56,358 bases of DNA from Spirochaetota bacterium (GTDB lineage: Bacteria > Spirochaetota > UBA4802 > UBA5368), in the NCBI GenBank assembly GCA_004297825.1, contig SCSX01000075.1:1-56358 (forward strand). The letters run 5' to 3'. How positions within the stretch are numbered: position 1 is the stretch's first letter; each line of letters starts with the position of its first letter. The translations under genes and the position numbers were made by a program. Below the pieces are notes generated by a model. That model was not told the DNA's origin and did not search any database. It worked only from the letters and a program-made list of their open reading frames with translations. This document shows positions 4,305 to 19,900 of this stretch, one piece after another.

Positions 4305-5465
4305 TTATTTACCGCCACCGGGTACCTTCTCATTCAGCTTGCCGCTCTCCTGAAACCGAACTCCACTGCCCGCCCTGAACCTAATCCCCTGGATTTCGGT
4401 ATCTGCCGCAAGGAACCCATCGCTCAATCTGCCGCTCTCGTAGAAATGAACTTCCGTACCCGCGGTAAATCTGATCCCTTGTATCTCCGTATCCGCTAAA
4501 AGTTTTACAAGGCACACCTTGCCGCTATCATAAAAATAGACTCTTGAACCCTCAACGAACGTGATCCCCTGTATCTTTGTATCGGCCAACAGTATCCCCT
4601 GGCTCAGGGTGCCGCTTTCGTTGAACATAACTCCAGTGCCTGCCTTGAGCTTGATCCCCCGTATCTCCGTATCGGCTGCCAGTATTCCTTGATCCAAATT
4701 GCCGTGCCGGAATTGAACTTCGGTACCCGCCTTGAATTTGATCCCCCGTATTTCGGTATCTTCTGAAAGATCTGCCCAATCCGGTTTATCTCCACTGAAC
4801 CGAACCCACGTTTTTGCTTTGAATTTGATCCCTTGTATCTCCATATCGGTTATTAGATGTACGAGTTCCAGCATGTCGCTACGATTAAAATCCACCACGG
4901 TGCCGGCGCTAAACTTCATCCCCTGTATCTCTGTGTCGGCTAACAGAGTCCCTCTGAGCAGTTTACCTTTTTTGAAAAAATGAACTATCGTATCAGCCCT
5001 TAAACTGAGCCCCTGTACCTTTGTGTTTTTCAGAAGGGTTCCCCAGGACAACGTGCCGTTCTCATAAAGCTGAATCTCAGTGCCTGCCTTGAGCCTGACC
5101 CCCTGTATCTCCGTATTTGATGAGAGCGTGCCATGCTCAGGCTTTCCATTAAAAAATTCAACGTCCGTGCCCGCCTTGAATCTGATTCCGCGAACTTTCG
5201 TATTGTCCGAGAGTCGGGCCATCCTCAGCATGCCGCTTTCAAAAAGCCAGACATTCGTACCCCCTTTAAAGGCGATCCCCTGTATCTCCGTATCCGCAGA
5301 AAGTCGTGCCTGTCTCAGCTTGCCGCTTTCATCGAACCAAACTTCTGTCCCCGCCTTGAATCTGTTCTCCTGTATCTCAGTATCAACTGAAAGCGTTGAC
5401 CCTGCAAATCCACGTATAGTAAGAAAGAAGATGGTCATTACACCGAGAACGATACGGAGTTTCAT
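4305..5465 (-). CDS. Exported protein of twelve ~30-residue tandem repeats
   Basis: A 386-residue protein: a signal peptide (residues 1-22, ending GFAG) followed by twelve consecutive 29-30-residue repeats that fill the rest. The consensus is L-x-A-D-T-E-I-Q-G-I-x-F-K-A-G-T-x-V-x-F-x-E-S-G-K-L-x-x-G-x. Each unit predicts short beta strands (TEIQGI, TxVxF, GKLxxG) separated by turns, as in a beta-solenoid or an open repeat sheet reminiscent of MORN-like proteins. No lipobox, catalytic motif or C-terminal anchor is seen, so it is predicted to be periplasmic or secreted. I do not recognise a named domain. It lies in the accessory insert beside the toxin-antitoxin pair and is lower in GC than the chromosome around it. 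Binding, adhesion or a structural role are possibilities only. Confidence 0.7.
   Translation of the reverse strand: MKLRIVLGVMTIFFLTIRGFAGSTLSVDTEIQENRFKAGTEVWFDESGKLRQARLSADTEIQGIAFKGGTNVWLFESGMLRMARLSDNTKVRGIRFKAGTDVEFFNGKPEHGTLSSNTEIQGVRLKAGTEIQLYENGTLSWGTLLKNTKVQGLSLRADTIVHFFKKGKLLRGTLLADTEIQGMKFSAGTVVDFNRSDMLELVHLITDMEIQGIKFKAKTWVRFSGDKPDWADLSEDTEIRGIKFKAGTEVQFRHGNLDQGILAADTEIRGIKLKAGTGVMFNESGTLSQGILLADTKIQGITFVEGSRVYFYDSGKVCLVKLLADTEIQGIRFTAGTEVHFYESGRLSDGFLAADTEIQGIRFRAGSGVRFQESGKLNEKVPGGGK
4320..5393 (-). repeat. Coding tandem repeat, 12 units of 87-90 bp
   Basis: The repeat protein gene consists of twelve units of 87 or 90 bases. Units are diverged at DNA level (the recurrent piece reads roughly CCCTGTATCTCCGTATC on the plus strand) yet keep the protein consensus, indicating old expansion under selection rather than recent slippage. 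Confidence 0.8.
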
Positions 5466-5514
5466 CGAAACATCCTCCCGTTTTTATCATCGAAGCGTCT
5501 CTTCCCGCGCCCTG

Positions 5515-5588
5515 CCCTTCTTCTTGAAATGCGCCTTCACCCCGGCAAGGAACGCCGCGCAGCGTGAAATCTCGGTGAACACGGGTAT
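5515..5588 (-). pseudogene. 3'-end fragment copied from the acyl-CoA synthetase gene
   Basis: These 74 bases match 6346-6419, near the 3' end of the ADP-forming acyl-CoA synthetase gene, at about 70 of 74 positions by eye and in the same orientation. The copy encodes the TEISRCAAFLAGVKAHF segment of that protein and nothing upstream of it. It is fused to a fragment of the metallopeptidase gene at 5594. Confidence 0.8.
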
Positions 5589-5593
5589 ATTAC

Positions 5594-5655
5594 GGTATCG
5601 GGAAAGGAAGGAGAATAAGTGCGACCCCTCGCACGAGAAGCTCAAGAGTTTTTAA
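5594..5655 (+). pseudogene. 3'-end fragment related to the metallopeptidase lipoprotein gene
   Basis: These 62 bases align with 3241-3302, the last 20 codons of the metallopeptidase-like lipoprotein gene, at roughly 48 of 62 positions. They still encode RERKENKCDPSHEKLKSF followed by a stop, against RERKEKKCELPHEKLAGF in the intact gene. The rest of the gene is absent. It abuts the acyl-CoA synthetase fragment. Confidence 0.7.
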
Positions 5656-5680
5656 GGGCTGGGGATTTAGCGCATACCCT

Positions 5681-6187
5681 TCATTTCCTTTCCTTAGGGC
5701 TGTCAAAGCCTATCTTTCGCTTTGGTTTTGCGTCGTCCGCGAGCAGCCGCTTAATCGCCTGGAACACGATCCGGAACTGCTCGTCGTATTTCTTCTCCAT
5801 GCTCTCTATCTTCCTGCGAAGATCATCATGAGAGGAAAGCATCGTACGCAACCGCGTAAAGGTGCGCATGATCTGGATATTCACCTGGACCGCACGATCG
5901 CTGGTAAGTACGCTGGACAGCATGGCAACGCCTTGTTCGGTAAAGGCGAAGGGCGGCTTTCTCGTACCACCCCAACTTGATGTCACAATCTGTGATCTCA
6001 ACTGGTCGAATTCATCCACGGTCAGCTGGAACATAAAATCTTCCGGGAAGCGTGACTGGTTCCGTTTCACCGCCTGGTTGAGCGCACGGGTTTCCACTTC
6101 ATACAATTCGGCAAGGTCTTTATCGAGCATGACCTTGTGACCCCGCAGCAGATATATTTTGTTCAGTATTCTTTCATCTGGAAGCAT
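5681..6187 (-). CDS. ORF6N domain-containing DNA-binding protein
   Basis: A 168-residue protein with an N-terminal ORF6N domain (residues about 8-90): [25 protein letters not shown], then [21 protein letters not shown] and [14 protein letters not shown]. This domain is common in phage-derived and chromosomal accessory proteins and is thought to bind DNA. The C-terminal third is a charged helix (residues 110-150). It stands alone on the minus strand in the accessory insert; no phage genes are beside it. The ribosome site (GGGAGA) is about 10 bases from the ATG. Target and role are unknown. Confidence 0.85.
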
Positions 6188-6323
6188 ATCTGTGGTCTCT
6201 CCCGTTCTATCTTTTTGCGGCCTGTTGAATAAATTCTGCTGTCATTTCATTTTTCGGTTCATTTGGGCGATGAGTTACGCCTTGAATTAGCCAGGATTCG
6301 CGGGGCTAGACCTGCCCGGAAAC

Positions 6324-7721
6324 CTATGTGGCAACGCCCGCCCTTCCCTTCTTCGAAAAATGCGCCTTCACCCCGGCAAGGAACGCCGCGCAGCGTGAAA
6401 TCTCCGTGAACACGGGTATGCCCTCCGCCTCGGCGGCCTCGCGAAACGAGTCCTGCGAGACGTTGATGCCGATCATCCAGAGCGCGACGGGTTTCCCGTA
6501 GCGGCGCTTCATGGCGGCGATCTTCGAGAGGTACGCCGTCGTCGTGAGGTCCCAGGCGATCGTCTCCACGATGAGCGAATCGACGCCCTCGTCCTTCATG
6601 AGCGCCTCGACCGCCCGGGTATATACGGGCTCCAATCCGTTCAGCTCGACCGCGGGCCAGAGGTCCACGGGATGACTCGGCCGCATCCATTCGGGAAACA
6701 CCGTCCCGATCTCCGCGATCGTCTCCGGCGAAAGTTCCGCAAGATCCAGTCCGTGATCGGCGAGCAGGTCGGCCGACACAATGCCCGCCCCCCCGGAAAA
6801 GGTCGCGATTGCCGTACCGCGCCGCGCCGTGAACGCGGTGGTTTTCGAAAACCCGCGGACAAAATCCATGAGCTCGTGCATGTCGTACACCGGCACCACG
6901 CCCGCCTGCCGGAACGCGCCCTCGTAGACCGCCTCCTCCCCGGAAAGGCTCGCCGTGTGGCTCATCGCGGCGCGCGCGCCCCCCGGGCTGCGCCCCGCCT
7001 TGAGTACCACGACGGGCTTCGCCGTCGCGCGCGCCAGGTCAAGAAATTTCCGCCCGTCCATGATGGATTCCAGGTAGCAGCCAATGACCTCCGTGTCCGG
7101 GTCGTTTACCAGGTACTCCAGCACGTCCGTCTCGTGCACGTCGCACTTGTTGCCAATGGAGCACACCTTCGCGATCCCCATGCCGCCGCGCTCGAGTATC
7201 GTCATGAGAAATCCCGCCGACAGCATGCCGCTCTGCACGATGAGCGACACGTTCCCCGGCTTCATGAGAACCTTCCACCTGTCCGAATACATGAAGGAGA
7301 AGACGTTGCGCGTGTGGCCGTCCAGGAGCCCCATGCAGTTGGGCCCCCACAGCCGGATGCCGCGGGCGCGCGCGCGCGCGACCATATCCTGTTGAAGCCT
7401 GTTCCCCGCCTCTCCCGTCTCGGAAAACCCCGCCGACTCGATGATGATCCCCTTAACCCCCCGGTCGGCGCAGTCGTCGATCGTTTCCAGTATGAACCGG
7501 GCGGGAATGAAATAGATCGCGAGCTCGAACGGCCGTGGAATCGATTTGATATCGGGGTAGCACGTGACGCCCAGGATTTCCTTCACCCGCGGGTTAACCG
7601 GGTACACGGGGCCCTTGTAGCCGGCGAGGACGTTTCGAACTATGTGGAACCCGCCCTTGACCTGGTTGTCCGACGCGCCAATAATCGCCACGCCCTCGGG
7701 ATGAAAAAAGTAATCAAGCAT
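6324..7721 (-). CDS. ADP-forming acyl-CoA synthetase, alpha-type CoA-binding protein
   Basis: A 465-residue protein starting MLDYFFHPEGVAIIGAS; the ATG at 7721 has GGAGGG 6 bases upstream. It has a CoA-binding Rossmann domain (residues 5-130; IIGASDNQVKGG, YPVNPR), then two succinyl-CoA-ligase-like flavodoxin domains with WGPNCMGL, VSLIVQSG and the phosphorylatable His in MSHTASLSG. The family converts acyl-CoA + ADP + Pi to acid + ATP + CoA, conserving energy in fermentation, and can work in reverse. The ATP-grasp beta domain present in full-length synthetases is missing here and is not in the neighbouring genes, so a partner encoded elsewhere is needed for classical activity. It follows the TPR gene by 22 bases. 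A copy of its 3' end lies at 5515-5588. Confidence 0.85.
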   Translation of the reverse strand: MLDYFFHPEGVAIIGASDNQVKGGFHIVRNVLAGYKGPVYPVNPRVKEILGVTCYPDIKSIPRPFELAIYFIPARFILETIDDCADRGVKGIIIESAGFSETGEAGNRLQQDMVARARARGIRLWGPNCMGLLDGHTRNVFSFMYSDRWKVLMKPGNVSLIVQSGMLSAGFLMTILERGGMGIAKVCSIGNKCDVHETDVLEYLVNDPDTEVIGCYLESIMDGRKFLDLARATAKPVVVLKAGRSPGGARAAMSHTASLSGEEAVYEGAFRQAGVVPVYDMHELMDFVRGFSKTTAFTARRGTAIATFSGGAGIVSADLLADHGLDLAELSPETIAEIGTVFPEWMRPSHPVDLWPAVELNGLEPVYTRAVEALMKDEGVDSLIVETIAWDLTTTAYLSKIAAMKRRYGKPVALWMIGINVSQDSFREAAEAEGIPVFTEISRCAAFLAGVKAHFSKKGRAGVAT

Positions 7722-7743
7722 GCATGTCCCTCCGCGTTGTCCC

Positions 7744-8454
7744 TCAGGGGGCGGTCCGTCCCAGTTTTTCCGCCTTGTCGTATTTTTTTGCCTTGCGATA
7801 CGCGCGCACGAGCGCCTGCCGCGCGTCTGCCCTGTGCGGCTCGAGCGCGAAGGCGGCCTCGAAGCTCGCGACGGCGTTCTCGATCTTACCGGCGTTCTCA
7901 TACGAGGTGCCCAGCGCGAAGTGCAGCTCGAAGCCGTCCTGCCCGGCATCCCGCGCCGCGACCAGGCGGGGGATCGCGTCCTCCCAGCGGTGAAGGTGAT
8001 AAAAGGACATTCCGTAAATGAACTTCGGGTAGCGCTCGCGGGGCTCGTGGCGCGAGAATACGTCTATGAGATCCGGGTATTCCTTTTCTTCGTACAGTAT
8101 TTCAAGCACGCTCTGCATCGTGGAGAGGTCCTCGTCCTCCTTCATGGATGACACGATCAGGCGTGCCCCCTCGATACGGTCCCCCAGTTCGATGCGCGTG
8201 AGCCCCAGCAGGCGCACGATCTCCCGGTTGCCCGGGTACAGCGTCATGAGGTCCGATAAATAGGGTTTCAGTTTCGCGTATTCATCCCTGGAATACATCG
8301 CCTTCGCTTTCTTCAGCGAATCCTCCAAGCCCTCCTTCTTCACCCTCTCGTAATACACGCGCAGCGAATACCGGTACACCTCCCGGTGATAGATCACCGA
8401 TCCGGCGATTCCGGTGAAGAAGGCGAGGAAAAACATGAATTTAATGAGCTTCAT
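7744..8454 (-). CDS. Membrane-anchored TPR protein
   Basis: A 236-residue protein with an uncleaved-looking N-terminal hydrophobic segment (residues 4-22) and at least three TPR-like helix pairs in the rest, clearest at the C-terminus (GTSYENAGKIENAVASFEAAFALEPHRADARQAL). TPR units mediate protein-protein contacts, so it is probably an envelope scaffold. It is the first gene of a two-gene minus-strand unit with the acyl-CoA synthetase. A bidirectional-looking hairpin at 8475-8510 separates it from the receiver gene upstream. No specific partner can be inferred. Confidence 0.75.
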   Translation of the reverse strand: MKLIKFMFFLAFFTGIAGSVIYHREVYRYSLRVYYERVKKEGLEDSLKKAKAMYSRDEYAKLKPYLSDLMTLYPGNREIVRLLGLTRIELGDRIEGARLIVSSMKEDEDLSTMQSVLEILYEEKEYPDLIDVFSRHEPRERYPKFIYGMSFYHLHRWEDAIPRLVAARDAGQDGFELHFALGTSYENAGKIENAVASFEAAFALEPHRADARQALVRAYRKAKKYDKAEKLGRTAP

Positions 8455-9044: not shown

Positions 9045-9572
9045 CTACTTTACAAGCTCGTATATCACGTTCCGGTCTTCCCACGCCTTGTTCCGCTCGT
9101 ACGTGTCTATGGGGAACTCCATCTGCTTGAGCTCGACCGGCGCGGCCTTCTGGGGAACCAGGCCCAGGGCGAGCGCGACGCCGTAGATGATCGCCTCGGG
9201 CCTTGGGGGACAGCCCGGGATGAAGTAATTGACCGGCACGGCCTCGAGGGCGCCGCCGCATACGTTGTAGCTGTCGGCCCACATGTTGCCGCCGATCGCG
9301 CACGAGCCTATCCCGAACACGAGCTTGGGCGCCGGCATCGCGTCATAGGCGCGCTTCACGAGCGGCTGGGTGGGCCGCGTCACGGCACCGGAGATGAGCA
9401 TCACGTCCGCGTGACGCGGCGAGCCCACCACCTTGATGCCGAACCGCTCCACGTCATAGTACGGGGTCAGCACGTTCAATATCTCGATGTCGCAGCCGTT
9501 GCAGGCGCCGGAATTGCAGTGATACACCCACAGCGACCTCGGCAGAATTTTCTTTGCGAGATTTCTAAACAT
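9045..9572 (-). CDS. Group 4 [NiFe] hydrogenase small subunit (HycG/HyfI/NuoB-like)
   Basis: A 175-residue soluble subunit carrying the [4Fe-4S] cluster nearest the NiFe site. Cluster ligands are visible in CNSGACNGCDIE (Cys24 and Cys27), GSCAIGG and PGCPPRPE, the NuoB pattern. The protein passes electrons between the large subunit and the ferredoxin-like subunit. Its start at 9572 follows the stop of the ferredoxin-like gene by 2 bases. It is the last gene of the hydrogenase operon. Unlike periplasmic uptake hydrogenases it has no Tat signal and no extra cluster domain, as expected for a cytoplasm-facing group 4 enzyme. Confidence 0.92.
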   Translation of the reverse strand: MFRNLAKKILPRSLWVYHCNSGACNGCDIEILNVLTPYYDVERFGIKVVGSPRHADVMLISGAVTRPTQPLVKRAYDAMPAPKLVFGIGSCAIGGNMWADSYNVCGGALEAVPVNYFIPGCPPRPEAIIYGVALALGLVPQKAAPVELKQMEFPIDTYERNKAWEDRNVIYELVK

Positions 9573-9574
9573 GA

Positions 9575-10120
9575 TTATTCTCCTATCCGTTCGGGTCTCT
9601 TGAACCGGTCGCTCTTGGCCAGCTGCTCGGTGTCGAACTGTTCGGTGCATGCCGGCAGCACGGTGCGCATCTCGAGATTGTCGTACCGGTATCCCTTCAG
9701 GTTCATGCGGTCGATCCTGTTCGGGGTCTCCATTTCGTAGCAGCGTCCGCAGCGGTTGCAGGTCGCCATGAAAAGCTCCAGGCTCTGGCTCAGGTCGCTC
9801 CTGCTGGGACACGCAAGCTCGAACTCGCCCGTCATCGTGATCGCCTTTTCCGGGCACACGTCCGCGCAGCGCCCGCAGTAGGTGCAGCGCCCGCCGTCGT
9901 ATACCAGGACGCGCAGGTCCTGGCACAGGTCGCGTATCATGATCGTGCGGGCCGGGCAGTGCGCGTGGCAGCCGCCGCAGCCGATGCATTTATGATGGTC
10001 CCAGACCGGCTGCCCGCGGTACCCCTCCGGCGTAGGATGCGGCTGGAAGGGATAGGGAAGCGTAACGGTACCGGGTTTGATTACCAGTAATACCTGTTTT
10101 ATCTTGCTAGTTAACCACAC
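9575..10120 (-). CDS. Hydrogenase 4Fe-4S ferredoxin-like subunit (HycF/HyfH/NuoI-like)
   Basis: A 181-residue protein with two complete [4Fe-4S] motifs, CIGCGGCHAHCP and CTYCGRCADVCP, in the middle, homologous to NuoI. A further Cys pair (CNRCGRCYEM, near residue 125) in the C-terminal part also occurs in HycF/HyfH-type subunits. It should link the small subunit to the electron-input module, taking the place of the ferredoxin arm of complex I. It lies between the NuoH-like and NuoB-like genes, the standard order of Hyc/Hyf operons. Confidence 0.9.
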   Translation of the reverse strand: MWLTSKIKQVLLVIKPGTVTLPYPFQPHPTPEGYRGQPVWDHHKCIGCGGCHAHCPARTIMIRDLCQDLRVLVYDGGRCTYCGRCADVCPEKAITMTGEFELACPSRSDLSQSLELFMATCNRCGRCYEMETPNRIDRMNLKGYRYDNLEMRTVLPACTEQFDTEQLAKSDRFKRPERIGE

Positions 10121-10143: not shown

Positions 10144-11043
10144 TTATATTCCATACACGGTCAGCCCGACCGCCGTGAGTGAGAGCAGGATGAGCACGGC
10201 GTAGTACCTGACCGCCTGTTCGATACGAAGCCTCGGGTTCGTCGAACCGACCAGCGATATCAGCACCACCACCGCGAGAATGCCCGCGAGTTGGGTTCCG
10301 ATATTCGCCGCGTACGACCCGGTCTGCAGGAAGGGCATGAACACCGTCACGAACAGGAACGCATAGAACATCTGCTTGATCATCATGTAGTACTTGAAGA
10401 GCGCGAGATAGGGACCGGAATACTCGATGAACGGACCTTCGATGATTTCGATCTCGGCCTCCGCGATGTCGAACGGCTGGCGGCCTACGAACGCCTGGAG
10501 CGCCATGAGGAAGACCACGAGCATGAGCACTACGCCCCACCCGTAGCCGGTCATCGCGACGCTGAAGAAGCTGGCGCCCACGGACATTCCCTTCACCTTG
10601 AGCGCGCCCATGATGAGCGTCATCGCGAGCACGGGCTCCACCATGATCATCGTGATCATTTCGCGGCTTGCGCCCACCATCGCATACGTGTTGCGGCTCG
10701 AGAGCGCCCCCAGGAGGACCGATACGCCGCCCAGGGTAAGCACATAGATTATCGTGATTATGTCGGCGTACTGGGTAAGGAAGTTCGCCTTGAATCCCAG
10801 CGGCACGAACATGACGACCGTCACGATCGAAGCGAACGCCATCATGGGCGCGATCTTGAAGGCGACATTGCCGGGAACGAGCCGCTCCTTGCCCAGGAGC
10901 TTGATCAGGTCATAATAAGGCTGCACGATGGGCGGCCCCTGGCGGGACTGGACCTTTGCGTAGAGCTTCCTAATCACGCCCTCGAACAGCGGCGCGAGTC
11001 CCAGAAACACGACCACGTTTACGATTATTGCCAGTATGTCCAT
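10144..11043 (-). CDS. Hydrogenase membrane subunit (HycD/HyfC/NuoH-like)
   Basis: A 299-residue, very hydrophobic protein with about eight membrane helices. Conserved NuoH-family features include SRQGPPIVQPYYDLIKLLGKE near residue 33-53, SREMITMI near residue 125 and the acidic stretch FDIAEAEIEIIEGPFIEYSG around residues 192-211. In complex I this subunit forms the quinone cavity and connects redox chemistry to ion translocation; in group 4 hydrogenases it anchors the soluble arm. It lies between the large-subunit gene (11055) and the ferredoxin-like gene. Confidence 0.92.
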   Translation of the reverse strand: MDILAIIVNVVVFLGLAPLFEGVIRKLYAKVQSRQGPPIVQPYYDLIKLLGKERLVPGNVAFKIAPMMAFASIVTVVMFVPLGFKANFLTQYADIITIIYVLTLGGVSVLLGALSSRNTYAMVGASREMITMIMVEPVLAMTLIMGALKVKGMSVGASFFSVAMTGYGWGVVLMLVVFLMALQAFVGRQPFDIAEAEIEIIEGPFIEYSGPYLALFKYYMMIKQMFYAFLFVTVFMPFLQTGSYAANIGTQLAGILAVVVLISLVGSTNPRLRIEQAVRYYAVLILLSLTAVGLTVYGI

Positions 11044-11054
11044 AGCTTACCTGC

Positions 11055-12725
11055 CTACCCCTTATTTCTCGAGAGCGCTTCCAGCTCGCTCTGCGACATG
11101 ACCTTCATGCCGCCGTTCCTGAGGTCTACCACTTCCATGCGTTCCGTGCAGGAGAAACACGGGTCTATGCTGCCGATGATTATCGGCACGTCCGCCAGCT
11201 GGTTGTTCAGGAGCATCATGGGCACGCCCTGGAGGTTGGGGTACGTGGGGGCGCGCACCCTCCAGCGCTCCGGCCTGTTCTCCTCGCCGGTGATTACGTA
11301 ATGCGTGACCTCTCCGCGCGGCGCCTCGACCGCGGTGATGCCGTGCCTCCCGGCCGGAAGCGCGTCGTCGAAGGGCATGAGTATCGGCCCGTCGTTGGGC
11401 ATCTTGTCGAGTGCCTGGCGTATGATGCTGATCGCCTCGAAGGTCTCGAGCACGCGCACGAGCACGGTGCCCCACACGTCGCAGTTGTCGACCACGGGCA
11501 CGTCGAACTTCATTTCATCGTACGCGGCGTACGGCTGGTCCCTGCGCGCGTCGATATCGACCCCCCTGGCCCTGGCGACGGGTCCCACGAGGCTCCATTT
11601 GATGGTGTCCTCTTTCGTGATATAGCCGACGTCCTTGGTGCGGCGGTGTATCGCCGTGTCGCCGATGATCGCGTTCTTGATCGTGACCATCTCCTTCTCG
11701 ATCGTGCCGATCACGTTCAGGATGTCCTGTTTCAGTTCGGGGGTGATGTCGCGGCGTACGCCGCCGATAACGATCATCCCGTAGGTCTTGCGGCTCCCGG
11801 TGAGGCGCTCGCACAGCCACATGATGGGTTCGCGCACGCGCCACGCCTGCATGAACACGGTGTCGAATCCGATCAGGTGGCCCGCGACGCCCAGCCAGAG
11901 CAGGTGCGAGTGCACGCGCTCGATCTCGAGCATTATCGTGCGGATGTATTCGGCGCGGCGCGATATCTTGTGGCCGGCCGCGATCTCGACCGCCTGCGAA
12001 AAGGAGGCCGCGTGCACCGATCCGCAAATGCCGCAGATACGCTCGGCCAGGAACGGAATCTCGTTATACGAAATCTGGGTCTGTGCGAGCTTCTCGACGC
12101 CGCGGTGGATCATGAATCCCCGGTAGTCGCTTCCCTTGATCGTCTCTCCGTCCACGAACAGCGCGAAGTGCGCGGGCTCGTGCTGGGTGGGATGATAGGG
12201 ACCAAAAGGAACTATGGAGCATCCGTCCGGGCATTCATCAAGCTGGTAGGCCACGTTCTCGGCGGCCAACGGCTTGATGTTGAAGGGGACCTCCTTGCGG
12301 AGCGGGTAGATGTCCGCGGGCCAGTCGTCGGCGGTAACGAGTTTCTTGGGCTTCGGGTGGTTGGTGAACTTCATCCCGAGAAGGTCCATGTATTCACGCT
12401 CCGACCATCCCGCGTTGGGGATGTCCGGTGTGATGGATTCGATGGGCTCCATCTCCTTCGTCGCGGTGCGCAGGCTCGCGAAGTAATGCTCCTTGTCGAA
12501 GGCGAAGGTGTGGATGAGACCCAGCGTACCGTCCTTCGCAAGGTAATCGGTCCCTACGCTTACGAGGTAGCGTCCGCCCTGGGCGATGACCTCGTTGCAT
12601 ATCTCGCGGACCTTGTCCTTCTTGATGTCTATGAAGAGCTGGGTGGCCTCCGGGTTTTCCACGCCGGTGACCGCATTCGCGAATTTTTTCTTAAGCTGAT
12701 CCGTTAAGGCTTGAATCGTTGCCAT
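11055..12725 (-). CDS. Group 4 [NiFe] hydrogenase large subunit with NuoC domain (HycE/HyfG-like)
   Basis: A 556-residue fusion. Residues 1-150 are NuoC-like (GWSEREYMDLLG, WPADIYPLRKE) and the rest is NuoD/hydrogenase large subunit. All four NiFe ligands are present: RICGIC (Cys231, Cys234) and DPCFSC (Cys523, Cys526), so this is a hydrogenase and not a quinone oxidoreductase. A 27-residue tail after Arg529 matches the peptide that the HycI-type protease removes after nickel insertion, and a candidate protease is encoded at 14609. The enzyme evolves or consumes H2 at the cytoplasmic side. No hypABCDEF genes are in the window and must be elsewhere. Confidence 0.94.
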   Translation of the reverse strand: MATIQALTDQLKKKFANAVTGVENPEATQLFIDIKKDKVREICNEVIAQGGRYLVSVGTDYLAKDGTLGLIHTFAFDKEHYFASLRTATKEMEPIESITPDIPNAGWSEREYMDLLGMKFTNHPKPKKLVTADDWPADIYPLRKEVPFNIKPLAAENVAYQLDECPDGCSIVPFGPYHPTQHEPAHFALFVDGETIKGSDYRGFMIHRGVEKLAQTQISYNEIPFLAERICGICGSVHAASFSQAVEIAAGHKISRRAEYIRTIMLEIERVHSHLLWLGVAGHLIGFDTVFMQAWRVREPIMWLCERLTGSRKTYGMIVIGGVRRDITPELKQDILNVIGTIEKEMVTIKNAIIGDTAIHRRTKDVGYITKEDTIKWSLVGPVARARGVDIDARRDQPYAAYDEMKFDVPVVDNCDVWGTVLVRVLETFEAISIIRQALDKMPNDGPILMPFDDALPAGRHGITAVEAPRGEVTHYVITGEENRPERWRVRAPTYPNLQGVPMMLLNNQLADVPIIIGSIDPCFSCTERMEVVDLRNGGMKVMSQSELEALSRNKG

Positions 12726-12756: not shown

Positions 12757-14619
12757 TTACTTCTTCACGTTGCCGCCCGTCCACCAGAACATCAGCTTGA
12801 GCGCCGAGAACATGCTTGAATCCATGTAGCGGTTGCGGTTGTTCAGGGTCTGGTATCCGCACAGCCAGGTGTCTACCTCGCGCGTGGTATTGCCGCCGGA
12901 CCTGGTCAGGAGCCACGCGACGCACCCCGCGATCGCGAATATCGCGAGCACCACGAGCGGAACCGCCATCGAGGCCGCCGATGTAAGGCCGGGCACCTCG
13001 AAGGTCACGCCCATCGCGGTGTTGAACACGTGTTTATCAAGGTCCATGTTCCTGAACGCGGCGGAGAGCATGGAGCCCCCGGAATTCTGGAACATGGTGA
13101 TGATGGTATTGAAGTAGAAGAACGGGATCACGCCCTGCAGGATGCACAGCGCACCCAGGATGACTTTCGGGAGTATCATGCCCGCCGGTACCTCTTTCAC
13201 CTCTTTTTCGATCGTCCACTCGGTCCCTGCCGAGGTGAAGGTCATGCCGAAGAATTTCACGTAGCAGGAAAGGGTGATCGCGCTCGTGAAGAGGGCGACG
13301 ATGCCGAAGAACACCAGGAAGAGCACCTCGTTGCCCGCGAGGAGCGAGGAGGAGATGAGCGTCCATTTGCTCGCGAAGCCGGAGAACGGCGGCACCCCCG
13401 AAATCGACAGGGAGGCGATGCCGGCGATTATCGCGGTCACGGGCATGAACTTGAGGAGGCCGCCCAGCTTGTTCAGGTCCTTGCTTCCGGTCGCGAAGAG
13501 CACGCTCCCGGAGGTGAGGAACAGCAGTCCCTTGAAGATCGCGTGATTGAGCACGTGGTAGACCGCGCCGATTATCGCGATGAGCGCCAGGAGCTTCAGG
13601 TATTCGCTTTCCGAGTTGAACATGAACACCGCGGCGCCTATCCCGAAGATGATGTAGCCGACCTGGCCAATCGAGGAATACGCGAGAAGCCGCTTGGACT
13701 GGCTCTGTTTCATCGACTGCACGGTCCCTATGAACAGGGTGACCACCCCGAAGGTCGCGATGATCGCGCCCCAGAGCGCGCCGTTGAAATGAAAGGTTTC
13801 GTTATGAGGGATCATCCAGAAGAAGGTGCGGATGATGCCGTACACGCCCGTCTTGATCATGACGCCGGAAAGGAGCGCGCTTATGGGAGACGGCGCTATG
13901 GAGTGCGCGTCGGGCAGCCACATCTGTCCAAAGGGGAAGATGGCCGCCTTGAATCCGAATCCCAGGAAGATGAGCGCGTATACTATGAAGGGAATCGCTC
14001 CCTGCGAGGCGCCCAGGCTCCGCGTCACCGCGTGCACCGAATCGCCCAGGCCGCTTCCGGCCACCAGCGCTCCGGCGACTATAAGCAGCCACGCGACTTC
14101 CATGAGGAGCAGGTACTTGTTCGACGACTTCACGTTCTCGGGTTTCTTGTATTCGAACTTGACCAGGAAGTAGCTCGCGACGGTCATCATCTGCCACGCG
14201 ATCGTGAATCCCACGGTCAGGTCGTCCACCGTCACGATGGCGGCCATCCCCGCGATGAAGATCGGGTAGTTGAGATAATAGCTTTTCAGGCTGTAGTCGT
14301 GGTAGTGTTCCATGTATTCGATGGAGTAAAACGCGCTCACGATCGACATGAGTGCGATGATCCCCAGGAAGAAGCCCGCAAAACTGTCGAGCAGGAGATA
14401 CACGGGCAGGGGTCCGATATACAAGAGCTCCGTGGTAAGGGACTTCTCGAAGATGACGCTGTAGCTTATATTCAATAAAACTACTCCCGCGATCGCCACG
14501 AAAGCAAAATTCAGCCAGCCGGCCAGCTTTCTCTTTTCCGAGAAAAACGGCACGATGACCGCGGAGAGCACGAGTATCCCCATGGATAAGAGCAGGCTGC
14601 CATACAGATTACTGTTCAT
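12757..14619 (-). CDS. Hydrogenase antiporter-like membrane subunit (HycC/HyfB/NuoL-like)
   Basis: About 620 residues with 14-16 predicted helices, homologous to the Mrp-antiporter-type subunits NuoL/M/N. Conserved residues include the Glu in FYSIEYMEHY and the Lys-containing helix IPFIVYALIFLGFGFKAAIFPF with WLPDAHS immediately after. It is the only antiporter-type subunit in the operon, as in E. coli Hyc (FHL-1) and unlike Hyf with three. It probably translocates H+ or Na+. The second ATG (14619) is preferred because AGGAG lies 7 bases before it; an ATG at 14625 is too close. The start overlaps the maturation protease gene. Confidence 0.9.
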   Translation of the reverse strand: MNSNLYGSLLLSMGILVLSAVIVPFFSEKRKLAGWLNFAFVAIAGVVLLNISYSVIFEKSLTTELLYIGPLPVYLLLDSFAGFFLGIIALMSIVSAFYSIEYMEHYHDYSLKSYYLNYPIFIAGMAAIVTVDDLTVGFTIAWQMMTVASYFLVKFEYKKPENVKSSNKYLLLMEVAWLLIVAGALVAGSGLGDSVHAVTRSLGASQGAIPFIVYALIFLGFGFKAAIFPFGQMWLPDAHSIAPSPISALLSGVMIKTGVYGIIRTFFWMIPHNETFHFNGALWGAIIATFGVVTLFIGTVQSMKQSQSKRLLAYSSIGQVGYIIFGIGAAVFMFNSESEYLKLLALIAIIGAVYHVLNHAIFKGLLFLTSGSVLFATGSKDLNKLGGLLKFMPVTAIIAGIASLSISGVPPFSGFASKWTLISSSLLAGNEVLFLVFFGIVALFTSAITLSCYVKFFGMTFTSAGTEWTIEKEVKEVPAGMILPKVILGALCILQGVIPFFYFNTIITMFQNSGGSMLSAAFRNMDLDKHVFNTAMGVTFEVPGLTSAASMAVPLVVLAIFAIAGCVAWLLTRSGGNTTREVDTWLCGYQTLNNRNRYMDSSMFSALKLMFWWTGGNVKK

Positions 14620-15109
14620 AGACATACTCCTTACGGGTACTGTGTAGTGTTTCGATAATGATATCCTTGATCGCGTCCGCGCTTTTTTTCACCGTCTGCG
14701 TGAGGCCCACGCCGAAATCCACGTCAGCCGCCTCGATTCCCAGCAAAAAAGCCTTTTTCCCCCGCTCGCGCCAGATCTTGCAGGCGAGCGTAAGGGACAA
14801 CTTGTGGGTGGAATAATTGTTCATGAGGCTTCCCATCTCGTCCATGCTTCCGAACACGAGCGAGCCGGGAAGGCTCGATGTCTGCACCGCGTCCAGGATG
14901 AGGACGTTTTCGCAGTCGCGGTCGGCGATCTCGAAGACGTAGCTTTCGATTATGTCTTCGGCGTGGACGATGTCCGCGCCGTGGACGCTTTTCTCGATCT
15001 CGTCGGCGAGGTAAAGGCCGACCCCGTCGTCGCGGCGTATGGAATTTCCCACCGCGACGATGCAGGTCTTCTCGCCCAGGAGCCTGGTTATTTCACCCGT
15101 GAAATCCAT
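14609..15109 (-). CDS. Hydrogenase maturation protease (HycI-like)
   Basis: A 166-residue protein of the HycI/HybD endopeptidase family, which cuts the C-terminal tail off the large subunit once nickel is in place. Visible motifs are VAVGNSIRRDDGVG (nickel-sensing acidic residue), LILDAVQ and STHKLSL with the conserved His. Its presence inside the operon matches the cleavable 27-residue tail on the large subunit at 11055. It overlaps the NuoL-like gene and lies 3 bases after the flavoprotein gene, so it is co-translated with the structural subunits. Confidence 0.88.
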   Translation of the reverse strand: MDFTGEITRLLGEKTCIVAVGNSIRRDDGVGLYLADEIEKSVHGADIVHAEDIIESYVFEIADRDCENVLILDAVQTSSLPGSLVFGSMDEMGSLMNNYSTHKLSLTLACKIWRERGKKAFLLGIEAADVDFGVGLTQTVKKSADAIKDIIIETLHSTRKEYVYEQ

Positions 15110-15965: not shown

Positions 15966-17033
15966 TTATCCCTGCTTCGTAATTTCTCTTCTTACGTAGG
16001 TCACGACATTGGGAATCCCTATATCGCCGGGACATACCCACTGGCAGCGCCCGCAGCCCACGCAGCCCGGGCGGAGATATTTCTTCGACTGCGAATATGA
16101 AAGCTTGCAGAAGAACCTCTTGTTGCGCCGGTCTTCAACCGGTTTGCGCGGGTTATGGCCGCCGGCCATGCGCGCGTAGCCCTCGTACGCGCATGAATCC
16201 CAGGAGCGCAGCCTGTCGGTGCATCCGGCGCACGCCGTATCGTTGACGTCCACCACGTTGAAGCAGGAGCAGGACGGGCACACGAAGGTACAGGCGCCGC
16301 ATTCGAAGCACTGGTCGCCCACGTATTCCCAGACTTCCTCTTTCGCAAAGCCCGTGGTCACGCGGTTAATCACCCTCGAAATCCAGGCCTTGTTGTCGAC
16401 CGCCACCGGTTCGAAGAGCGTGATGGCCTTGTCGAGCTTTTCGCTTTTCTGTTTCATGTGCGCGTCGGCGGCAGCCTTAAGCCCCATCTTCTCGGCGAGC
16501 ATCTTGCCCTTATCGCTCCCGGCCTCGACCAGGTATTCGTCGCCCAGGTCGGTGAGGTTCAGGTCGTATCCCTCCTTCGCGAAGGGCCCGCTGTCCATGC
16601 AGACGCACAGGCACTGCTTGAAGGGGGTGGTGCATGAGTTCGTGACGATGAACATTCCCCTGCGGTGGTTGCGGTAAACCTCGTCCACGAATTCCTGTCC
16701 CAGAAAAAAACGGTCCAGGCAGAGCAGGCCGTTCAGGTCGCAGGAGCGCAGGCCGAAAAGGGCCTTGGGCGTCACCGTAAAATCCGGTTTCACCTCAACG
16801 GACTTCTTCGCGCTGTCGTACTTGTACGACAGGATTCGCTCCATCTGCGGGAACACCGACTGCTTGGGCGGGGCGGAAGGGATGGGCGCACCGAGGTTTA
16901 TCTCGGACGCGCTTCCCACCTTGTCAAAGAACGTCTGCCCCGATGTCTTTTCCACGAACGGACCGTACAACTGGTATTCTTTGCCGAGCTCCTCGGCGAT
17001 CTTGAGTACATCGCTTTTCTTGATCAGAAACAT
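15966..17033 (-). CDS. 4Fe-4S dicluster subunit (sulfhydrogenase beta / AsrA type)
   Basis: A 355-residue protein with an N-terminal AsrA-like region (ALFGLRSCDLNGLLCLDRFF, TPFKQCLCVCMDSGPF). Two cluster motifs lie in the last third, CFECGACTFVCP with a following CSCF and CAGC, and CVGCGRCQWVCP. The extra cysteines suggest more than two clusters. Sulfhydrogenase beta and AsrA proteins are electron conduits between a flavoprotein and a catalytic subunit. Here it would link the flavoprotein at 15113 to the formate-dehydrogenase-like subunit at 17037 and onward to the hydrogenase arm. It takes the place of the HycB-type ferredoxin of formate hydrogenlyase. Confidence 0.85.
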   Translation of the reverse strand: MFLIKKSDVLKIAEELGKEYQLYGPFVEKTSGQTFFDKVGSASEINLGAPIPSAPPKQSVFPQMERILSYKYDSAKKSVEVKPDFTVTPKALFGLRSCDLNGLLCLDRFFLGQEFVDEVYRNHRRGMFIVTNSCTTPFKQCLCVCMDSGPFAKEGYDLNLTDLGDEYLVEAGSDKGKMLAEKMGLKAAADAHMKQKSEKLDKAITLFEPVAVDNKAWISRVINRVTTGFAKEEVWEYVGDQCFECGACTFVCPSCSCFNVVDVNDTACAGCTDRLRSWDSCAYEGYARMAGGHNPRKPVEDRRNKRFFCKLSYSQSKKYLRPGCVGCGRCQWVCPGDIGIPNVVTYVRREITKQG

Positions 17034-17036
17034 GGC

Positions 17037-19043
17037 TCACACCTTCTCGATCCTTACTGGAATAGTTGCGTCTTCGCCCTGCTTGAGCACGTCCGCGTGG
17101 CCCAGCAAAAACTTGGATATCATGTCCTGCACGAAATAGGGGGCGTAGGCGGTTCCGGACTTGACGTCTCCCGTAACCCTGACCGTCACGCGCATTTCCC
17201 CGAACGGCGACGCCACCCGGACGGGCCAGCGGTCGCGTACCTGGATCGTCTTCGCGTCCTCGGCCGAAATCTCCACGTAGCCTTCCGGATAATCAAGGAG
17301 CAGCGCGTTGTATTCCCTCATGGGGATGTAGGTTTTCTTCATGAGATTGTTCTGGTGCCAGAAATGCTGAGCCTTCCCTACCATGAGGAGCACGGGGAAT
17401 TCGCTCTTAGCGGCGGGCATTTCCACGACCGCGTCCGCCTTGACGAAGCTGAGCTTTCTTCCCGCCTTTTCCAGCGCAAAGCGTTTTGTCCCCTCGGGGT
17501 TCTTGTCGTCGCAGGGCCACTGGAGCCCGAAACCGGAGGAGAGCTTCTTGTAGGACACGCCGGAATAGGAAGGCGTGACCTTCGCGATTTCGTCCATGAC
17601 ATCGGAGGGGCTTGCGTATTTCCACACCAGCCCGGCCTTTTCGGCGAGCTTGACGTAGAGCTTCCAGCCCGGAAGTATGTCACCCGTAGGCTCCAGCTTC
17701 TTCGCGGTATACTGGATGCGGCGCTCGGAATTCGTGAATGTCCCCTCGTCTTCCATGTAGGTGGTGATGGGCAGGACGACCGTCGCGAGTTCCGTGAAGG
17801 CGTTCTGGTAGGCGCCCACGTACGCGACGAAATCCAGCTTCTTGATGGCATCGGCGCTGCGGATGATGCCCTCGTCGTGATCGACGACCATGAGCGCCTT
17901 GAGCTTCGACGCGGGATCGGCAAGCATTCCGTACACCGGCGCCCCCGCGGCGGAGGGAATATCGGACCCCCAGACCGAAGAAAATCTCTTGGTTACCGCG
18001 CCGTCCGCCGGGGACTGGAACCCGGTGAGGAGGTCGTGCGCGACGCCCATGTCGTAGCCGCCCTGAAGGTTATTGAGTCCCGCGATCGGGTTTACACCGC
18101 AGGCTTCTTTCCCGACCTTCCCGGCCATGAGGTACAGGTTGAATATGTAGCCGATGGTGGCCTCGTCGAGCCCGGAAATTCCGGAGGCGAAAAAGACCAT
18201 CGCCGATTTCGCCTTCGCGAGCGCGCGGGCCAGTTCCTTCAGGATATCGTAGGCGATGCCGGTCCTTTCGGCGATCTCGTTCTCGGGCAGCGTCTCGAAC
18301 GCCTTCTTGAAATCCTCGAAGCCCTGGGTATGGGCGCCCACGAAGTCCTTGTCGTAGATCCCCTCATCGTACATGGCCTTCGCCATGGCGAGAATCGCCG
18401 TCTTCTTGGAGCCGGGCTTTATCTGGAGGAAATCCTTCGACAGCTTCGCGATCTGGGAGCGGCGGCTGTCCATGGTCACCAGCCGGGAGCCCGCGCGGGC
18501 CGCCATATGCAACTCGCTTCCTATAATCGGATTCTGCTTGGTGATGTCGATGCCCACAACCAGGAGGAATTCGCTTTTACGAATTTCCTCAACGGAGCCG
18601 AGCATTCCCGCCATTCCCGTCCCCGCGTTCATCACGTTCAGGCTGTTGCGGTGCCCGGACTCGGAATCGAGGCTTATGTTGTTGGACTTGAACGCGGCGC
18701 GGGCTATTTTCTGGAAGAGGTAGCTTTCCTCGTTGGACGAGCGCGGGGAACCCAGGAACCCGATCGAGTCCGCGCCGTGCTTCTTGAGCTTTTCCACCAC
18801 GAGCGCGATCGCCTCATCGTAGGAGGCCGGGACGAGCTTCCCGTCTTTTCGTATGAGCGGTGTGGTGATTCTTTCGGGGGTGTTAATGAGTTCGTGTATG
18901 TTCCATCCCCGAACACAGAGTCGGCCTTTACTTATGGGATGGTTTTGTGAGGGAAATACCTTGAGGACTTTGTTGTCTTGGACGTCTATGAAGTGACCGC
19001 AGCCGGTCCCGCAAAATGTACAAACGCCAGGTTTCTGACTCAT
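17037..19043 (-). CDS. Formate-dehydrogenase-like molybdopterin protein lacking the catalytic Cys/Sec and Arg
   Basis: A 668-residue member of the DMSO-reductase/FdhF family. The N-terminal [4Fe-4S] ligands are intact (Cys8, Cys11, Cys15, Cys43), and the molybdopterin-binding fold and C-terminal cap domain are present. Aligned by eye with E. coli FdhF, the metal-ligand Sec140 corresponds to Gly130 (SESGHRNS), His141 is kept as His131, and the substrate-binding Arg333 corresponds to Ala321 (GVNPIAGLNN). No in-frame TGA that could be Sec occurs. Formate oxidation by the known mechanism is therefore unlikely; a NuoG-like structural and electron-relay role or a different substrate is more plausible. 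It is the first gene of the operon. Serines at 127 and 129 are alternative metal ligands to consider. Confidence 0.85.
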   Translation of the reverse strand: MSQKPGVCTFCGTGCGHFIDVQDNKVLKVFPSQNHPISKGRLCVRGWNIHELINTPERITTPLIRKDGKLVPASYDEAIALVVEKLKKHGADSIGFLGSPRSSNEESYLFQKIARAAFKSNNISLDSESGHRNSLNVMNAGTGMAGMLGSVEEIRKSEFLLVVGIDITKQNPIIGSELHMAARAGSRLVTMDSRRSQIAKLSKDFLQIKPGSKKTAILAMAKAMYDEGIYDKDFVGAHTQGFEDFKKAFETLPENEIAERTGIAYDILKELARALAKAKSAMVFFASGISGLDEATIGYIFNLYLMAGKVGKEACGVNPIAGLNNLQGGYDMGVAHDLLTGFQSPADGAVTKRFSSVWGSDIPSAAGAPVYGMLADPASKLKALMVVDHDEGIIRSADAIKKLDFVAYVGAYQNAFTELATVVLPITTYMEDEGTFTNSERRIQYTAKKLEPTGDILPGWKLYVKLAEKAGLVWKYASPSDVMDEIAKVTPSYSGVSYKKLSSGFGLQWPCDDKNPEGTKRFALEKAGRKLSFVKADAVVEMPAAKSEFPVLLMVGKAQHFWHQNNLMKKTYIPMREYNALLLDYPEGYVEISAEDAKTIQVRDRWPVRVASPFGEMRVTVRVTGDVKSGTAYAPYFVQDMISKFLLGHADVLKQGEDATIPVRIEKV

Positions 19044-19402: not shown

Positions 19403-19900
19403 TTATTGATACATTGATTTCAGCGCGGATTTTACCAGGTACAGGGCGTTATGAATGTAGCTCACCCCGCCGATAAAGCGCTCCTTGATCATCCCTATGG
19501 GAAGGGCGTCGATATCGCCCTGCATGAGACCGAGCGATTCCTCCATCACGGTCACCAGGCGCTCCGCTTCCTTCATGCCGGCTTCGCGGACGATGGTCTC
19601 GATTGTCGCCCGGATGAGGCTTATGGAACCGATCATGTCCCTGACCGCACAGCAGAACCGCGGGCCCGCCGATACTGCCAGCTTTTCGATAACGCAGAGC
19701 CGCACCAGCTTGTAGCCGAGCGTCACGTCGGTACAGCTCCTGTTGGAGAAACAGTCGGGATAGCGCTCGAAATAGGCCTCCCCTATCCCGATCATGTCCT
19801 CGGCGGAAAAGGGGAACTCGCCCCCGAGCGCGATGACGCGCTCCCTGAACCGGTCGAAATCCTGGTGCTCCCTGAACAGTCGTGCGATAGGCGTATCCAT
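19403..19900 (-). CDS. Hypothetical helical protein
   Basis: A 165-residue soluble protein, predicted almost entirely helical, without signal peptide or membrane segments. It has several cysteines (a Cys around residue 56, one near 69 and a Cys-Cys pair in RFCCAVRDMI), but their spacing fits no known cluster or zinc motif. Stretches such as EAERLVTVMEESLGLMQGDI look like long amphipathic helices. It is the only gene between the hydrogenase operon's control region and the lolA-like gene, and its start (ATG 19900) has no strong ribosome site. I do not recognise a family and infer no function. Confidence 0.55.
   Translation of the reverse strand: MDTPIARLFREHQDFDRFRERVIALGGEFPFSAEDMIGIGEAYFERYPDCFSNRSCTDVTLGYKLVRLCVIEKLAVSAGPRFCCAVRDMIGSISLIRATIETIVREAGMKEAERLVTVMEESLGLMQGDIDALPIGMIKERFIGGVSYIHNALYLVKSALKSMYQ

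Follow-up and report, generated by a model that had tools for sequence, protein, structure and literature searches.

Does a subunit with the fold of a formate dehydrogenase (FDH) still oxidize formate when its gene heads a hydrogenase operon, and if not, what is it kept for? The question is raised by the FdhF-like gene in a 56,358-nucleotide stretch of Spirochaetota DNA (contig SCSX01000075.1, hereafter the window). The gene is the first of nine, in the order FdhF-like, HydB, HydG, HycI, HyfB, HyfG, HyfC, HyfH and HyfI. The operon is laid out as follows:

17037–19043, minus strand: FdhF-like subunit, 668 aa; whole FDH fold, formate-dehydrogenase active site lost
15966–17033, minus strand: HydB, sulfhydrogenase-beta/AsrA-like Fe-S subunit, 355 aa
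15113–15961, minus strand: HydG, FAD/NAD(P)-binding subunit with [2Fe-2S], sulfhydrogenase-gamma/AsrB-like, 282 aa
14609–15109, minus strand: HycI-type hydrogenase maturation protease
12757–14625, minus strand: HyfB, NuoL/Mrp-like ion-translocating antiporter subunit
11055–12725, minus strand: HyfG, fused NuoC/NuoD-type [NiFe]-hydrogenase large subunit
10144–11043, minus strand: HyfC, NuoH-like membrane subunit
9575–10120, minus strand: HyfH, NuoI-like ferredoxin subunit with two 4Fe-4S motifs
9740–9760, minus strand: C121-x2-C124-x2-C127 of HyfH, where the first CxxC of the E. coli HycF metal site (facing FdhF) stands
9045–9572, minus strand: HyfI, NuoB-like small subunit with a proximal [4Fe-4S] motif

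Fold and catalytic positions of the FdhF-like protein

The frame of the FdhF-like gene runs from 19043 to 17037 on the minus strand and starts with ATG. A plus-strand frame across the same positions was rejected as only the antisense of this gene. Upstream of the operon lies a 165-aa open frame (19403–19900, minus strand) with no Pfam or NCBIfam match. The FdhF-like protein contains the Pfam domains Molybdop_Fe4S4, Molybdopterin and Molydop_binding, and its top NCBIfam model is Fdh-alpha (TIGR01591), with a score of 457 bits that is below the curated cut-off of 666 bits. The closest solved FDH is 9t1s_L (364 bits, pairwise alignment). The AlphaFold2 model, built on 44 orthologs, has a mean pLDDT of 90.8 and superposes 649 residues on FdhF of the E. 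coli formate hydrogenlyase (FHL) complex (7z0t_A) with an rmsd of 2.5 Å. It matches ForCE1 (8rqz_C) with Z 44.3 and follows active FDHs along their whole length, whereas NuoG-type chains of complex I cover only about 450 of its residues. The FDH fold and the N-terminal [4Fe-4S] motif are both present; the Sec/Cys metal ligand (position 140) and the substrate Arg (position 333) of FDHs are both absent. In FDHs, the Cys ligand, His and Arg are assigned the roles described for RcFDH (PMC7171172). Residue counts refer to 44 representative orthologs from Spirochaetota, Aminicenantota/Acidobacteriota, Pseudomonadota and Planctomycetota, and the positions concerned are:

18915–19022, minus strand: [4Fe-4S] motif C8-x2-C11-x3-C15-x27-C43; cysteines invariant (44/44)
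18654–18656, minus strand: codon 130, GGG (Gly), at the Sec/Cys140 metal-ligand position; Gly in 41, Trp in 2, Tyr in 1
18081–18083, minus strand: codon 321, GCG (Ala), at the Arg333 position; Thr in 21, Ala in 20, Pro in 2, Val in 1, never Arg
17307–17360, minus strand: family-specific segment WHQNN...REYN, residues 562–579, at the FDH loop bearing R581/H585

By eye, a sequence-only reading had aligned Gly130 with Sec/Cys140 and Ala321 with Arg333. Alignment with 9t1s_L confirms this placement, with Gly130 facing the Sec and Ala321 the catalytic Arg of V-N-P-L-R-G, and E. coli FdhF together with 21 Spirochaete FDHs gives the same correspondence (U140 to G130, H141 to H131 and R333 to A321). 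The register is further supported by the superposition of the whole fold on FdhF. In the same alignments C8/C11/C15/C42 of FdhF match C8/C11/C15/C43, so the four cluster cysteines are retained as had been claimed; His131, said to be kept along with them, is in fact retained in 29 orthologs, the others having Gln (8), Leu (4), Tyr (2) or Ser (1). R45, which directly follows the cluster motif and occupies the position of FdhF K44, is invariant (44/44). Ser127 and Ser129 had been put forward as alternative Mo/W ligands, a proposal that we reject because neither position is conserved among the 44 orthologs (S/A and A/S/P/Q/T, respectively). Judged by its residues, the FdhF-like protein is excluded from formate oxidation on current understanding.

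The hydrogenase operon and the proposed path of electrons

The closest match of HyfG is HycE of E. coli FHL (395 bits). HyfG has a C-terminal extension beyond CTER and carries both nickel CxxC motifs, C231/C234 being present in 58/58 and C523/C526 in 57/58 sequences. With HyfB, HyfC, HyfH and HyfI also present, the hydrogenase belongs to group 4 (FHL-like). The closest matches of HydB and HydG are the beta and gamma subunits of Pyrococcus furiosus sulfhydrogenase I (9nez_B, E 7e-36, and 9nez_C, E 4e-53); between them they carry FAD/NAD(P) and Fe-S motifs with conserved cysteines, although their scores are below the NCBIfam equivalog cut-offs. The operon is therefore predicted, from its gene content, to encode an NAD(P)H-linked group-4 energy-converting [NiFe]-hydrogenase. 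It resembles E. coli FHL (FdhF-HycB-HycCDEFG) in HyfG, in the whole FdhF fold and in HyfB/C/H/I, which correspond to HycC/D/F/G. However, a formate hydrogenlyase has an active FdhF and a HycB-type four-cluster subunit, and the operon contains neither. The FdhF active site is lost, HydB and HydG have been added, and the only match to HycB within the operon is a weak one to HyfH. The HyfH metal site has also been rebuilt, with C66/C121/C124/C127 (invariant in 57/57 family members) in place of the CxxC-x34-CPxC of HycF. Two further cysteines, C145 (64/64; 16599–16601) and C309 (63/64; 16107–16109), are found only in hydrogenase-linked HydB and are absent from 10 other HydB proteins.

We infer that the complex would catalyse NAD(P)H + H+ <-> NAD(P)+ + H2 and couple this reaction to the movement of ions via HyfB/HyfC. 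With less certainty, the input half would run from the FAD and [2Fe-2S] of HydG through the HydB clusters to the FdhF-like [4Fe-4S], and the output half, again less certain, from that cluster through those of HyfH to HyfI and the NiFe site of HyfG. The four extra HyfH cysteines perhaps hold a third centre that replaces the missing HycB. The FdhF-like protein would then be a cofactor-free relay and adaptor. We consider it slightly more probable than its opposite that an NAD(P)-linked FDH module was captured by a group-4 FHL-like energy-converting [NiFe]-hydrogenase and lost its formate chemistry.

Whether the FdhF-like cluster itself relays electrons is evenly balanced. One locus is differently built: at 6500–12957 of L182 (G048:C1:637000-656000; Spirochaetota), HydB-HydG precede a gene for a 185-aa CxxC-rich ferredoxin and those of a group-4 hydrogenase (HyfC, HyfI, a split large subunit, HyfH and HycI), and both an FdhF-like gene and a large antiporter subunit are missing. 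The FdhF-like protein is therefore not the sole way to join HydBG to a hydrogenase. It is possible, though rather unlikely, that the subunit is a structural scaffold only, which assembles HydBG on the hydrogenase while electrons pass from HydB to HyfH directly and its cluster is a relic. Besides L182, precedents of two kinds point in this direction. StnC has an inactive FdhF domain whose clusters C1/C2 lie outside the electron path yet are required for assembly, specifically for tetramer formation (PMC10482914), and N7, the NuoG cluster that matches the FdhF-like one, has been described as too remote for carrying electrons (PMC9474812). By analogy with these two proteins, the relay may be wrong. 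WHQNN...REYN and other stretches away from the cluster are also conserved as strongly as the cluster domain. However, the Fe-S domain, including R45 next to the cluster, itself ranks with the best-conserved regions of the protein. Moreover, the ferredoxin that L182 has between HydG and HyfC is missing in the nine-gene operon, so something may need to bridge HydB and HyfH there. These two observations, the absence of HycB and the extra HyfH and HydB cysteines are the points in favour of the relay. The sequence-only reading had called the protein a NuoG-like electron conduit. As in NuoG, a subunit of FDH type has indeed been inactivated in a complex I-like machine; however, the protein lacks the N-terminal ferredoxin-like N1b/N4/N5 domain and scores only 142 bits against the 470-bit cut-off of the NuoG model, and a conduit is not implied by the likeness because N7 is described as too remote and the StnC clusters are off path.

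The remodelled cofactor cleft

Of 140 columns conserved among 22 active FDHs, 47 are kept, 47 lost and 46 partly kept in the FdhF-like family. The lost columns include U140, R138, R333, Q335, N176, H181, D429, T579 and R631; N176 is replaced by D in 44/44 and H181 by N in 43/44 orthologs. The G-E-N of the GENP loop is lost together with a deletion, and Q301, N223 and D478 are likewise replaced. Several such loops bind pterin guanine dinucleotides in the DMSO reductase family. As many of these cofactor-loop signatures are gone, binding of bis-MGD by the FdhF-like protein appears unlikely.

At the positions of the FDH cofactor loops the family has conserved altered segments of its own (DITKQNPIIGSE, VDHDEGI and WHQNN). 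WHQNN...REYN is among the most conserved stretches of the protein and falls in the region where the pLDDT of the model is lowest. The strong conservation of the changed loops suggests that the cleft region is under a new constraint and is perhaps an interface. It is improbable, in our estimate, that the cleft still binds a ligand (an altered pterin or some other molecule) and that the protein has a new substrate and works as an enzyme or sensor. The conservation of the cofactor-loop segments in changed form, where an empty relic might have drifted, could be taken in this sense, as could the retention of the full-length fold, unlike NuoG. However, the family has lost the Mo ligand, Arg333, Gln335, Gln301, the GENP loop, Asp478 and Arg631, the metal position offers no conserved alternative Cys, Sec, Ser or Asp, and a new subunit interface would equally yield loops that are changed but conserved.

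Distribution, origin and comparison with known systems

A scan of named genomes gave 69 loci from Spirochaetota, Aminicenantes/Saccharicenans, Chitinibacteraceae, Rhodocyclaceae, Chromatiaceae, one Phycisphaeraceae MAG and three Desulfobulbaceae, the last three of which proved to be active FDHs. Cultured hosts of the operon include Chitinibacter tainanensis, Rhodocyclus purpureus and Lamprocystis purpurea. Wherever a locus is long enough to show them, the gene set and order are nearly always identical, and two proteobacterial MAGs have a HyfC-like gene ahead of the operon (L041 and L042). Orthologs from genomes of the same taxonomic order are 51–87% identical to the FdhF-like protein, with Gly130 invariant. 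Among 393 sampled Spirochaetota genomes, 31 have a clear member; 36 matches were listed, of which the five weakest are Sec-type (in-frame TGA) or active FDHs. No plasmid-borne member was seen among the best plasmid matches, which are ordinary FDHs of about 32% identity.

The dN/dS of the FdhF-like gene against its nearest relatives is about 0.11–0.16. The gene, present in at least four phyla, is by these comparisons repurposed and not decaying, as the sequence-only reading had argued, because the gene is intact and under strong selection, sits in a conserved hydrogenase operon and has both losses fixed across phyla. The source is a draft assembly of 96 contigs, but the notion that a sequencing error removed the Sec/Cys codon, or that an ordinary FHL formate dehydrogenase gene is decaying here into a pseudogene, is refuted almost beyond doubt by the comparative data, in which independent genomes of these phyla have the same positions changed, intact frames, dN/dS values of about 0.11 and many coordinated changes elsewhere in the protein. 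The further claim of two independent losses is not supported, as both changes co-occur in every member and the family forms one side of one branch.

That branch (100/100) splits the degenerate family, including L097 of the Phycisphaeraceae MAG, from all active FDHs in the FdhF tree. FDH-HydB-HydG triads whose FDH has active-site signatures, and which have no adjoining hydrogenase, occur at L137 (Spirochaetota, Cys; 4462–8440) and at L098–L100 (Desulfobulbaceae, Sec); they are predicted to be NAD(P)-linked formate dehydrogenases. They share the gene order and HydBG clade of the operon, but their FDH retains Cys/Sec, Arg333 and the GENP loop. In the HydB+HydG tree the active triads join the hydrogenase-linked set (96/90), apart from HdrA-linked and other HydBG, and are the nearest relatives found for it. 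L097 scores 561 bits with Fdh-alpha, compared with 293–457 for the family and 908–1096 for active FDHs; its GENP loop is partly kept and both catalytic residues are already gone. Judged by this score and loop, L097 is an intermediate form. The simplest history would be that an FHL-like hydrogenase captured an FDH-HydB-HydG triad as its input module and that formate chemistry was lost afterwards. The trees are unrooted or midpoint-rooted with several long branches, and because they lack a firm root, the direction of change rests on the improbability of regaining a Sec/Cys-Arg site. HydB-HydG pairs also occur at L175–L177 behind proteins of 650–660 aa that begin M-R/S-R-x-G-V-F-x-C-H-C-G; these are HdrA-like by eye and represent another context of the HydBG NAD(P)H module.

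Like NuoG/NDUFS1, the FdhF-like protein is an FDH-derived subunit without a Mo site, in a complex I-superfamily enzyme and near an NAD(P)H-oxidising module. However, it begins directly at the MopB Fe4S4 domain (residue 4) and keeps the full-length FDH fold, HydBG takes the place of NuoEF as NAD(P)H module, and the terminal acceptor is protons at the NiFe site. A closer kinship with NuoG, based on the shared K44R, N176D and R333A, was considered and rejected, as its NuoG-model score is no higher than those of active FDHs (146–184 bits). The branch of E. coli NuoG is too long to be placed in the tree, and the parallel with complex I looks independent. StnC of the Stn transhydrogenase (PMC10482914) likewise has a catalytically inactive FdhF-like domain with retained clusters, but as part of a fused NADPH-binding subunit in a bifurcating enzyme, whereas the FdhF-like protein is a separate subunit of a membrane hydrogenase. 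Mbh-Bfu of Dehalococcoides (PMC9304861) is also a nine-gene operon that combines an energy-converting NiFe hydrogenase with a nucleotide-oxidising module; that module is BfuABC (HydABC/NuoEFG-like), which has been proposed to bifurcate, in contrast to HydBG with the FdhF-like protein here, and the NuoF-like FMN subunit BfuB is absent from the nine genes. Group 3b sulfhydrogenases share homologs of HydB and HydG, but the catalytic subunit here is of group-4 type.

The closest description in the literature is that of an 'enigmatic' group 4 NiFe hydrogenase region in Saganbacteria RX5A (Matheus Carnevali et al. 2019, PMC6349859). According to the available portions of that article, group-4 hydrogenase genes adjoin there a molybdopterin oxidoreductase gene and asrA- and asrB-like genes (HydB/HydG family), and the oxidoreductase is an FDH by HMMs but was not placed by phylogeny. 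The likeness to the nine-gene operon is one of description, and the RX5A region differs in also having cooF. Those portions make no mention of catalytic-residue loss or of active FDH-HydBG relatives for RX5A, and no other account of such an operon was found in the literature searched.

Inactivated FDH subunits are already known from complex I-superfamily enzymes, and the FdhF-like family adds to them. An FHL-type complex has been proposed as the ancestor of complex I (PMC9474812), and the present family bears on how an FDH-type subunit entered it, with living cases of the steps in active FDH-HydBG triads, the partly eroded L097 and the fully repurposed form in cultured bacteria. Tentatively, and at somewhat below an even chance, the operon may represent a second, independent complex I story, in which a group-4 hydrogenase captured a whole NAD(P)-linked FDH-HydB-HydG module, formate oxidation was switched off, the FDH became the relay of an NAD(P)H arm, and new cysteine centres in HyfH and HydB replaced HycB. 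The nine-gene operon points to a predicted class of ion-translocating hydrogenases linked to NAD(P)H, and genomes that carry it should not be credited with formate hydrogenlyase on its account. Elsewhere in the genome that contains the window there are a complex I-type cluster, which encodes a NuoG-like protein of its own, Sec-type FDH-family genes and, at L180 (G000:C68:112000-124000), a second group-4-like large subunit with 49% identity to HyfG, beside three antiporter-like subunits.
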